From: an uncultured Saprospiraceae bacterium
GTDB lineage: Bacteria; Bacteroidota; Bacteroidia; Chitinophagales; Saprospiraceae
Assembly: GCA_937974625.1 (NCBI GenBank)
Contig: CALJVJ010000202.1
Coordinates: 1-64,000, forward strand
Direction: 5' to 3'
Length of the DNA stretch: 64,000 nt
A program made the translations under genes and the position numbers. Every line of letters starts with the position of its first letter. The stretch's first letter is position 1. Positions 15,724 to 26,742 of the stretch are shown in pieces. The notes below the pieces were generated by a model. That model ran no database searches and had not been told where the DNA came from. It worked only from the letters and a program-made list of their open reading frames with translations.

Positions 15724-16018
15724 TAAAACCTATAAAAATTGTAGACCTAAGTTTGCTTGTCTACTTTAGTTTATAAAAAAATCTTCCCAATCACCGAGAA
15801 TAAGTCCCAAAAATAAGACCTACAAAAAATCATACCCTCCTCTTGCCTTTTTCTCCTCACAATTCCCTAATTTAGCCAGCCTAATAGGAGTTATAATTTT
15901 TTACTAAAAGTCACACAAGCCGTACTTCAACGACCTAGAACCTGAAGAAGTGTATGCTTCTGAACCGTTATAGCGGATGGGATGCTAAAAGTACGACCTA
16001 TAAAAATCCTGTCATCCT

Positions 16019-17239
16019 GTGAAATTACTACACACATCTGATTGGCACCTTGGCCAAAAATTCCTCACGAATGACCGTAAGGCGGAACACGAATTGGCAC
16101 TCGGCTGGTTAAAAGACACTATCGAAGCCGAAAAAGTGGATGCTTTAGTGGTCTCAGGAGATATTTTTGATATTGGTAACCCACCTAGTTACGCTCGTAC
16201 CTTATATTTTAGAATCCTGAAAGATTTACAAGACACTTGCTGTAGACATATTGTAATTATTGGTGGAAACCATGATTCTCCTTCCATGCTGAATGCACCA
16301 AAGGAATTATTAGAGATTTTAAATGTTCATGTTGTTGGGGCAGCTACTGGAAATATTGAGGATGAGATTGTCGAATTAAAAAATGAGAAAGGGCAATTAG
16401 AAGCAGTTATTGCCGCAGTACCATTTTTGAGAGACCGAGATATTCGACAAAGTGTATCTGGAGAAACAGGATTGGAGCGAATCGCACAAGTTCAAGCGGG
16501 TATTGTACAACATTTTCAAGATGCAGGGGCTGCAGTTCAAAAATACGCAAAGCAGAAAGTGCCAATTTTAGCAACAGGCCATTTATTTGCAAAAGGAGCC
16601 TTGGCTTCAGATAAACAAGATAATATCTATGTCGGAAATATCGAAAATATTGAAGGAGACAATTTTCCTAAAATATTTGATTATGTGGCTTTAGGGCATA
16701 TACATCGAGCGCAATTGGTAGGAGAGCAGCAACATGTGCGTTATTGTGGTTCCATCATTCCTTTAAGCTTTAGTGAAATTCAAGATAGTAAGGTTGTTTT
16801 AGTGCTTGATTTTGATGGAAAGAAATTAGCCGAAATTAAAGAAATAAAAGTACCGAGGTATAGAGAATTGGTTACATTTATAGGAGGGTTGGAATCCGTA
16901 AAAGGTAAGTTGAAGCGCTTTGATGAAAAAAGAAAAGGAGCACTAATGCCTTGGATAGATATTAGTATTGAAATGGAAGAAAATATCCCAAATTTAGATG
17001 GTGAAATTCGAGAATTCGCCAAAGATTTTTGGATGGATATTCTGAAAATACGGACACGTCGCCCGCATGCAGCATTAGAGAGTTTAGCGGAAGAAGTCAG
17101 TCTAGATGACCTTACACCAGAAGATGTATTTATGAAAAAATGTGATAGTGGAGGAGAAATGTCAGCTGATGAAAAGGCTAGTTTATTGTTGACATTCAGA
17201 GAGTTATGTGAGTCAATGGCTGTAGAAGAAGGCGTTTAA
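16019..17239 (+). CDS. sbcD: Exonuclease SbcCD subunit D (GTG start)
   Basis: KLLHTSDWHLGQKF, GDIFDIGNP, GGNHDSP phosphoesterase motifs; followed by sbcC. Confidence 0.95.
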   Translation: MKLLHTSDWHLGQKFLTNDRKAEHELALGWLKDTIEAEKVDALVVSGDIFDIGNPPSYARTLYFRILKDLQDTCCRHIVIIGGNHDSPSMLNAPKELLEILNVHVVGAATGNIEDEIVELKNEKGQLEAVIAAVPFLRDRDIRQSVSGETGLERIAQVQAGIVQHFQDAGAAVQKYAKQKVPILATGHLFAKGALASDKQDNIYVGNIENIEGDNFPKIFDYVALGHIHRAQLVGEQQHVRYCGSIIPLSFSEIQDSKVVLVLDFDGKKLAEIKEIKVPRYRELVTFIGGLESVKGKLKRFDEKRKGALMPWIDISIEMEENIPNLDGEIREFAKDFWMDILKIRTRRPHAALESLAEEVSLDDLTPEDVFMKKCDSGGEMSADEKASLLLTFRELCESMAVEEGV

Positions 17240-23490: not shown

Positions 23491-23574
23491 ACATTTCTAT
23501 CTCAATCAATAATTCTTAGGAATGAAAATTAAATAAGTTAGACCAAGATGCGTAGTTATTTTGTTTTCTAAAAA

Positions 23575-23683
23575 GGCATGAATTCGTAAAACGAATGAAC
23601 CGTTTACGGATGGGGTGCCTCCAGACATAGCAGGGCTATGGCGACTGCCGGGGAGGCAGGTATTTTTAACGCATTTAGAATGC
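23575..23683 (+). ncRNA. Candidate structured 5' leader or small RNA upstream of sprE/porW
   Basis: Consecutive hairpins: ATTCGT-AAA-ACGAAT, CCGT-TT-ACGG, TGCCTCC..(CATAGC-AGG-GCTATG)..GGAGGCA, GCATT-TAG-AATGC; locally GC-rich in an AT-rich intergenic region. Confidence 0.4.
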
Positions 23684-23766
23684 AAAAGAACAAGTAGCTT
23701 GGCTCATGTTATTTATTTTTCATTTCTTAAATAACTTCATAATTTAGAATTCAACTAATACAAAGA

Positions 23767-26742
23767 ATGACTTATTTGAAAAAGATGAATAAAATTTGGA
23801 TTTGTTTAATCGCAGTCGTTTTAATTTCTGCCTGTACGACTCAGAAAAAGAGAGGCGATTTAACTAAAATGCAAAAGTTTTATCAGAATACAACTTCTGA
23901 ATTCAATGGCTACTTCAATGCAAATATTTTATATGAAGAAAGCAAGTTGAAATTAGATGAACAAGTATCTGATAATTATAATAAAATCCTTCCAATATAC
24001 AAGTATACCAAAGCAGACAATCCTAAGGAAGTTCAAGGAGATTTGGATGAAGCTATCAAAAAAGTATCGATTGTGGTCTCTCTGCACCGACAATCTGATT
24101 GGGTAGACGATTGTTACCTGTTGATGGGTAAGTCAATGTTTATGAAACAGGATTACGAATCTGCTCAAGAAGCCTTGGAATATATGGTGGCGGAATATAA
24201 CCCTGATGCCATTGCCAAAAAGAAGTCAAGAAAAAGAAAGAAAGCACTTAAAAAAGAAGACAAAAGTAGCAAAGGCAAAAAGAAGAAAAAGAAAGAAGTA
24301 GAAAAAAAGAAGAAAGACCGTAAAAAAGACATTGAAAAGAAAAAGAAGAATCGTAAAAAAGAAATAAAGGCCAAAAAGAAGGCTAGAGCAAAAGGAAAAA
24401 AAATACCTAAAAAAGTAAAAGTTTCGGAAGAAGAGAAAGCGCGTATAGCAAAAGCAGAAGCAGAAAAGAAAAAAGCAGAAGCAGATGCTGCCGAAAAAAA
24501 GGCAGAAGAAGAAGCAAAGGCGGAAGCAGAAGAGGAGAAGTCTAAACAAAATTACTTTTTGAAACATCGTCCATGCTACCAAGAAGGGGTATTGTGGTTA
24601 GCAAAAACCTACGTAGAGAGAGACGATTATATTCGAGCAGAGTTTTTATTCCAAGAATTAGCAGAAGACCCAAATACCTTCAAAGATATCAAGGAACAAT
24701 TAGCACCAGCAATGGCTTATTTCTATTTGGAACAAAAGAAATACGACGAAGCTGTGAATCCATTGAACCAAGCAATTGAATATGCGTCAGACAAGAATGA
24801 AAAAGGAAGGTATGCCTTTATTTTAGCGCAAATACATCAAGATGCTGGTAGAAATACAGAAGCTCTTGCAAGTTTTGAGCTAGCAAAAAAGTATAGTAAT
24901 GATTACGGGATGGAGTTTTCTTCCAAACTGAATGTTGTGAAAAACTCTTGGGCTACCGGACGTATTACCAATGATCAGGTGCAAAAGGACTTGAAAAAGA
25001 TGTTGAAAGAGTCAAAAAATTCAGACTACCAAGACCAAATTTATTTTGTGTTAGCTGATATTGCTTTAAAAGGAGGGGATAAGCCAAAAGGAATTGAATA
25101 TTTGACTAAATCTATAGAAACCTCAGTAGGTAATCAATCTCAAAAAGGGGAATCCCATTTGTTGCTAGCTAATCTTTATTATGAAGCGGCAGAATACGTA
25201 GATGCTAAATCCAATTACGATGCAGCATTATCCGCATTATCCAAAAATGATGAACGATTTCAAGAAGTCAGTAGTCGAGCTAAAGGATTGACAGATATTG
25301 TTAAAAATATTGAAATCATCACGTTACAAGATAGTTTGTTGATGGTAAGTGAGATGAGCCCTGAAGAAAAGCGAAAGTTGGCAGCAGAGATAAAGAAAAG
25401 CGAAGCAGAAGCTAAGTTGGCATCTGCTAAGGCATCTAATAATTTACCAAATAATGGGAAAAACAATAGATCAAGTGTCCCATTAGGAAATAATGTATCA
25501 GTAGGAGCCGGTGGCGCTAAGTCCAATTTCTTTGCCTATAATGACAAGGCACTAAAGAAAGGAAAAAGAGATTTTGAGCGACAATGGCCGGGTCGAACAA
25601 TTGCTGAAGATAATTGGCGACGGTCAAATCGACCAAATATTACCATTAATAATGAGATTGCGGATGTTTCTTCCTACGAAGAATCTTTGACAGATGAAGA
25701 AGTGACAAAAATGTTAGCAGGAGTTCCTAATTCAGATGCTGAAAAACAAAAGGCGAATGATAAGGTGATGTCCGCATTATTTCAATTAGGGAGCTTATAT
25801 AGAGATCGGTTAAAAAATAACGAGAAGGCAGTAGAAACATTGGAACTATTAAACCAAAGATATCCAGGGTCTCGTCATGAGCTAGAGTCTTGGTATTTCT
25901 TATACTTGGCACATGGGGATTTAGGGAACAATACCAAGAAGCGACAATACTTTGACAAGATTATGGAAAAGTATGGAAATACGGTTTATGCAAGAGTACT
26001 AAAAAATCCAGATTATTTGTCTCAAACAGAAAATAAGGAATCTAAAATCAATACTTATTATAATGAGACCTATGCCATGTTTACTAGCTCCAAATACACC
26101 GAGGTAAAGGAAAGGATAGGTAAGGTAAATAAGCTTTTTGGTGGAAACAATTCTCACCAACCCCGTTTTGCCTTATTAGATGCCATGAGTACTGGTGCGC
26201 TCGAAGAAGGAGGTGGGAAGGAGGTTTATGTGAAAAAATTAAAAGAATTAATCGGCAAGTTTCCTAATACAGATGAAGAGAAAAGGGCTAAAGAAATCCT
26301 TCGTTTGTTAGGAGATAAATCAGTGATTCAAGGTGGTAAGTTGGACCAAGAAAAGATGGATAATTTGAATAAAGTTTTCCGAAAAGAGGAGGATAAGGTA
26401 CATTATGGCATCGTGGTTTTTGATGACAAAGTGGATTTGAATAAAGTGAAAGCCAGTATTTCTGATTATAATAGAAAAAACCACAAATTAGACCGATTGA
26501 GAATTTCCAATATTTATTTAGGAAGTGATACCAATCGACCTGTAATTATAATCAGGAAGTTTAAAGACAAAAAACTAGCCATGAAGTATTATAATGGGGT
26601 AGTAAGTGATTTAAAAGATTTTATGCCTATTAAGGCAGGTTTTGATTTATTTGTGGTGAATCAATATAATTATCGCCAAATTCTTAGAAATAAATCCGTA
26701 GACGATTATCGATTGTTTTTTGCGGAAAATTATTTAGAATAA
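23767..26742 (+). CDS. porW/sprE: T9SS-associated lipoprotein with TPRs, SprE/PorW-like
   Basis: 991 aa; lipobox ISAC; QKFYQNTTSEFNGYFNANILYEESK; TPR-type repeats; Lys-rich linker; C-terminal YYNGVVSDLKDFMPIKAGFDLFVVNQYNYRQILRNKSVDDYRLFFAENY. Confidence 0.85.
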   Translation: MTYLKKMNKIWICLIAVVLISACTTQKKRGDLTKMQKFYQNTTSEFNGYFNANILYEESKLKLDEQVSDNYNKILPIYKYTKADNPKEVQGDLDEAIKKVSIVVSLHRQSDWVDDCYLLMGKSMFMKQDYESAQEALEYMVAEYNPDAIAKKKSRKRKKALKKEDKSSKGKKKKKKEVEKKKKDRKKDIEKKKKNRKKEIKAKKKARAKGKKIPKKVKVSEEEKARIAKAEAEKKKAEADAAEKKAEEEAKAEAEEEKSKQNYFLKHRPCYQEGVLWLAKTYVERDDYIRAEFLFQELAEDPNTFKDIKEQLAPAMAYFYLEQKKYDEAVNPLNQAIEYASDKNEKGRYAFILAQIHQDAGRNTEALASFELAKKYSNDYGMEFSSKLNVVKNSWATGRITNDQVQKDLKKMLKESKNSDYQDQIYFVLADIALKGGDKPKGIEYLTKSIETSVGNQSQKGESHLLLANLYYEAAEYVDAKSNYDAALSALSKNDERFQEVSSRAKGLTDIVKNIEIITLQDSLLMVSEMSPEEKRKLAAEIKKSEAEAKLASAKASNNLPNNGKNNRSSVPLGNNVSVGAGGAKSNFFAYNDKALKKGKRDFERQWPGRTIAEDNWRRSNRPNITINNEIADVSSYEESLTDEEVTKMLAGVPNSDAEKQKANDKVMSALFQLGSLYRDRLKNNEKAVETLELLNQRYPGSRHELESWYFLYLAHGDLGNNTKKRQYFDKIMEKYGNTVYARVLKNPDYLSQTENKESKINTYYNETYAMFTSSKYTEVKERIGKVNKLFGGNNSHQPRFALLDAMSTGALEEGGGKEVYVKKLKELIGKFPNTDEEKRAKEILRLLGDKSVIQGGKLDQEKMDNLNKVFRKEEDKVHYGIVVFDDKVDLNKVKASISDYNRKNHKLDRLRISNIYLGSDTNRPVIIIRKFKDKKLAMKYYNGVVSDLKDFMPIKAGFDLFVVNQYNYRQILRNKSVDDYRLFFAENYLE

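Follow-up and report, generated by a model that had tools for sequence, protein, structure and literature searches.

Two short sequences in the window (the whole stretch of 64,000 nucleotides analysed here), one at the start of sbcD and the other upstream of porW/sprE, appear to be copies of a dispersed, non-coding and non-autonomous structured repeat, in which the folded single strand is selected and hairpins are exchanged between copies; we assign this reading a probability of roughly 0.6. In such a repeat, the core would be a multi-way junction whose fixed joints, ATGA, GAA and AYGGG, carry hairpins that vary in length and are free in sequence. The larger repeats in which it sits may be moved in trans by ordinary transposases reading the repeat ends, while selection would act on the folded strand and not on the duplex sequence. 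The joints themselves are most likely recognised by a host or transposon protein during transposition or replication, and the hairpins could be exchanged through template switching or gene conversion, with the short conserved joints serving as homology. With some 60 hairpin versions in one fixed frame, a single genus provides a series of natural mutants of a folded nucleic acid, which makes testable the upkeep of structure in palindromic repeats, the swapping of hairpins as units and the identity of the reader of the joints.

Two copies of the module in the window

An earlier note on this DNA had matched GAACCGTTATAGCGGATGGGATGC at 15962-15985 to GAACCGTTTACGGATGGGGTGC at 23597-23618 and had described unlike hairpins abutting the two. 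Both sequences are present at these positions, and the hairpins, AGAAGTGTATGCTTCT (15946-15961) and ATTCGTAAAACGAAT (23582-23596), lie directly 5' of the matching stretches, each perfect or near-perfect and differing from the other in sequence. The outer stem that had been drawn around the first copy was likewise recovered, its arms CGTACTT (15921-15927) and AAGTACG (15989-15995) being present in the sequence and pairing in the RNA fold, and they delimit copy 1 of the structured element at 15921-15995 on the plus strand. Inside them a type I module matches covariance model R1, which was built from 17 copies, at 15939-15986 of the plus strand (cmsearch 53.7 bits, E 9.7e-14); its parts, in order on the same strand, are TGA (15943-15945), the P1 hairpin (15946-15961), GAA (15962-15964), the P2 hairpin (15965-15976) and ATGGGATGC (15977-15985). 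Around copy 1 lies a larger unit, to which related sequences were found at other loci of the genome by blastn, and whose features are a common right end and the outer stem. This right end, ACGACCTATAAAAATCCTGTCATCCTGT (15993-16020, plus strand), is repeated elsewhere and overlaps the GTG that starts sbcD, the gene for exonuclease subunit SbcD (16019-17239, plus strand; TIGR00619, 215 bits, cut-off 77.65).

Copy 2, a type I module at 23575-23619 on the plus strand (cmsearch 63.1 bits, E 1.4e-16), is composed of ATGA (23578-23581), P1 (23582-23596), GAA (23597-23599), P2 (23600-23609) and ATGGGGTGC (23610-23618), all on the plus strand, and it lies within a larger element, MITE-B, upstream of the type IX secretion lipoprotein gene porW/sprE (23767-26742, plus strand; NF052312, 495 bits, cut-off 250). 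In a search of the window without filters, model R1 detected only copies 1 and 2, the next best match having an E of 0.75.

Covariation and probable exchange of the hairpins

Across copies, the frame of the module reads ATGA-[P1]-GAA-[P2]-AYGGG-(N)TGC, with the joints ATGA, GAA and GGG conserved at 96-100% per position and the P1 stem positions at 44-83%. When copies were picked by their joints alone, with no P1 pairing demanded, the five outer P1 pairs were complete in 49 of the 59 different hairpins obtained, whereas shuffling of the arms left 15.7% complete. This result is independent of the fitting to the model that underlies the alignment of 118 copies (109 distinct), in which the share of paired cells reaches 98.2% for P1 and 94.7% for P2. 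Double-sided changes occupy 260 cells of that alignment, compared with 90.5 +/- 15.1 after shuffling; every P1 pair position shows compensatory change, and the covariation signal collapses when the partner is slid by one base. The structural covariation that the earlier note had suspected from two copies is thus borne out by compensatory changes in P1 across 109 distinct copies, with shuffles far below, and its provision that the copies might lack conserved pairing is answered by the P1 figure just given. That the folded structure of the module is under selection is well supported. The model's outer closing stem is weaker, with 59% of its cells paired. For copy 2, energy minimisation predicts an alternative in which the 5' arm of P1 pairs with the 3' arm of P2, so the module fold is tentative for that copy. 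Mismatch counts, used as a strand test, gave G-T versus A-C values of 18 versus 8 in P1 and 5 versus 6 in P2.

The hairpins also differ between copies whose surroundings are nearly the same. Within one genome, the P1 of locus L305 is unlike that of L261, L290 and L293, the flanks being 93-94% identical, and between two species, L228 and L282 have their flanks in common and differ in both hairpins. Smaller compensatory changes distinguish L261 from L262, so both modes, the swapping of units and small changes, seem to occur. A handful of such pairs and one orthologous locus support the view that hairpins can be replaced as whole units.

Carrier repeats and distribution

The MITE-B copy of the window occupies 23516-23729 on the plus strand. 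The element proper (23519-23726, 208 bp) is bounded by the inverted repeats GGAATGAAAATTAAATAA / TTATTTATTTTTCATTTC and framed on the same strand by the target duplication TTA, at 23516-23518 on one side and 23727-23729 on the other, recognised by the identity of the flanks. In addition to the module it holds a second internal hairpin unit (23617-23657, plus strand), seen in the sequence as GCCTCC...GGAGGC around CATAGC-AGG-GCTATG, of which the CATAGC..GCTATG part is kept in MITE-B copies whether or not they hold the module. Terminal inverted repeats GRAATGAAAATTAAATAA / TTATTTATTTTTCATTTC were found in 20 distinct copies, and identical 3-bp flanks, mostly TWA, in 16 of 19, so the carrier of copy 2 displays both terminal inverted repeats and target-site duplication, two of the marks of a MITE. 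Module-bearing copies are mostly 200-215 bp in length and module-free copies 157-179 bp, the latter having aaaaaacg in the module slot. For MITE-B, the search for an autonomous partner turned up three lone ends, and inspection of two loci revealed no transposase beside the ends.

The module also sits in several other repeat families whose ends differ, target duplications being well tested for MITE-B only and a short terminal inverted repeat pattern for family F matching too loosely to be of use. Other palindromes recur beside the module, namely CCGATAGCTATCGG and CATAGC..GCTATG units (L282 2243-2426; L296; L297), which suggests a larger set of exchangeable hairpins.

Searching the whole genome, as the earlier note had proposed, with the pattern GAACCGTTN{2,8}CGGATGGG returned 13 matches and none in a reversed control. 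With model R1 (E<=0.01), about 118 module copies were found in G000, the genome of the window, a lower bound since scoring covered only 150 of the roughly 2500 first-look candidates; the note had allowed that no further copies might exist, and there are about 118. G000 is a fragmented draft assembly, many of whose contigs terminate in or next to repeats (L024, L288, L289, L297); the repeats thus probably interrupt the assembly and make the copy numbers too low. All nine genomes of the genus that were examined carry the module, in 23-147 copies each, and outside the genus this short form gave weak matches in 5 of some 298 sampled genomes of the order. The module is intergenic in 105 of 110 copies, with five placed within open reading frames (ORFs) by a rough ORF call; Rickettsia-type palindromic elements, of which frequent in-frame insertion into genes is expected, were rejected on these figures. 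The neighbouring genes of the same 110 copies are arranged as opposite/opposite in 23, same/same in 22, opposite/same in 17 and same/opposite in 10, the others having one neighbour, and the module is without clear orientation preference relative to them.

A longer form, RTGAMYGARYGA-[hpA]-[hpB]-AAGYGARR-GAA-[P2]-RYGGG, has the tail GAA-P2-RYGGG in common with the module. Within the order, its model has matches in 33 of 299 genomes, which belong to 28 of 141 genera and mostly to the family of the window's genome; outside the order, three marginal matches were obtained among 396 genomes sampled across the phylum, and a comparison with virus contigs and plasmids gave no match. The hairpins of the long form covary (202 double-sided cells versus 40 when shuffled), hpA being less secure, with a stem of at least five pairs in 34% of cases versus 12% in shuffled sequence. 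Tandem arrays of the long form occur at L409 117-650 (168-bp period), L463 1714-2398 (about 70 bp) and L095 1540-1730. Portibacter marinus (Saprospirales), which was among the matches listed in a pattern scan of named genomes, most of the listed matches being chance, has a tandem pair with a 72 bp period. The presence of porW, a type IX secretion gene, points to Bacteroidota, and the genus of the window is putatively assigned to Saprospirales. One could envisage a hitherto undescribed kind of mobile hairpin whose joints are recognised and cut by a dedicated single-strand enzyme, so that individual hairpins pass as units from the repeats of one transposon family to those of another, throughout the order; we consider this unlikely.

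Relation to known systems and to the neighbouring genes

It is doubtful that the module is an independently transcribed selfish or catalytic RNA, despite an ATGA-stem-GAA-stem arrangement that resembles part of the hammerhead core, tandem GA flanking P1, a directly adjacent P2, the covariation, and three-hairpin relatives in many genera. The hammerhead core consists of CUGANGA together with A15.1-U16.1/H17. In the module, however, CUG does not precede AUGA, both the A15.1-U16.1 pair and H17 are missing, and the joint from P2 to P0 is too long; a hammerhead ribozyme was rejected on the grounds that the positions before ATGA vary, P2 begins with C-G and the AYGGG joint is long. Rfam was negative as well: version 15 gave no match in the window above the gathering cut-off, and at a relaxed E<=2 five loci yielded two sub-threshold matches, neither of them on the module. 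Moreover, hairpins in DNA account for the same covariation.

A literature search yielded no mention of the sequence strings and no description of an equivalent, and the known repeats resemble the module in part. The BOX elements of Streptococcus are likewise folded repeats and modular mosaics of subunits, but have another sequence and another module logic. The bacterial MITEs, among them RUP, NEMIS, ERIC and Nezha (PMC3733652), are, akin to MITE-B, short, non-coding, intergenic and foldable, with terminal inverted repeats and target duplications; they differ in that here one structured module is common to several MITE-like families with differing ends and its hairpins appear to be exchanged. 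Bacterial stem-loop sequence families (PMC2267715) are also intergenic repeats with a common predicted fold, whereas the module is defined by its joints and not by stem sequence, and extends over many genera. The repetitive hairpins and double hairpins of sponge and fungal mitochondria, in the part of their description considered here (PMC2800124), are likewise mobile-looking, intergenic and also found in tandem, and their copies differ by a few complementary substitutions; unlike the module, they are mitochondrial and have largely conserved stems, with no MITE frame described in that part.

In its workings the family is comparable to REP as well as MITE repeats. The REP and REPIN sequences associated with RAYT genes (PMC3733652, PMC2817692, PMC8266576) are also intergenic hairpins present in high copy number, and they too have a conserved foot that is unpaired. 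A Y1 (IS200-like) transposase might move the hairpins as REPs in the form of single-stranded DNA; in favour of this one could point to their fixed foot and to the Y1 transposase genes, RAYT-like single genes among them, present in all nine genomes. We nonetheless regard this as distinctly improbable. The foot of a REP is defined as GTAG or CGTC (PMC3733652), whereas that of the module is ATGA (96-100% per position); the 27 Y1 loci gave one strong module match, at which the gene is not framed by the module; the terminal inverted repeats and target duplications of MITE-B are typical of DDE transposons; and the module has two or three hairpins with variable stems. Membership in the REP/RAYT group was thus rejected on both foot sequence and framing of the RAYT gene. 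In G000, Y1 transposase genes, one of them RAYT-like, lie at L342 746-1330 and L350 1339-2139, unframed by modules.

Neutral palindromes or terminators accumulated by chance, as might be supposed from the shortness and intergenic position of the hairpins, are a very poor explanation for joints conserved at 96-100%, for stems that covary in about 60 distinct versions and for a module found between genes in all orientations, and an alignment artefact is disfavoured by the joint-only selection.

The genes next to the two window copies could be followed in related genomes. At the sbcD locus of a sister genome, G007 (SbcD 94% identical), the outer sequence is common up to the GTG start, and the right end is again upstream of sbcD; the frame encloses an unlike hairpin, with an additional hairpin beside it. 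Genomes G002 and G006 have no element at sbcD and an ATG start. The repeat being present with GTG and absent with ATG, the GTG start of sbcD seems to have arisen where repeat and gene meet. Among the genomes compared upstream of porW, with the porW start of distant sisters placed roughly, the element was seen only in G000, and a sister species that lacks it has a PorW 93% identical.

That the module serves sbcD and porW as a cis-regulatory leader RNA, either riboswitch-like or bound by a protein, is hardly tenable: both window copies do lie 5' of genes on the plus strand, with copy 1 right at the start codon of sbcD, and covariation is strong, but the 110 copies show mixed orientation, sister genomes with a readable upstream region have no element 5' of porW, the element at sbcD is absent or altered in sisters, and Rfam gave no match. 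Cis-regulation of either gene is largely refuted by the orthologue comparison and the orientation counts, and the module is probably not a switch for sbcD and porW. Of the earlier note's overall reading, the repeat family and its structural covariation stand; the hint that a position 5' of these genes matters is unsupported, given the mixed orientations, a porW copy missing in a sister and a differing hairpin at the sister sbcD, and the link to the downstream genes does not hold. Strong covariation 5' of a gene, we caution, need not imply a regulatory RNA. The SbcCD nuclease is known to cut DNA hairpins, and the palindromic repeat at the start codon of sbcD is, in that light, a curious coincidence.
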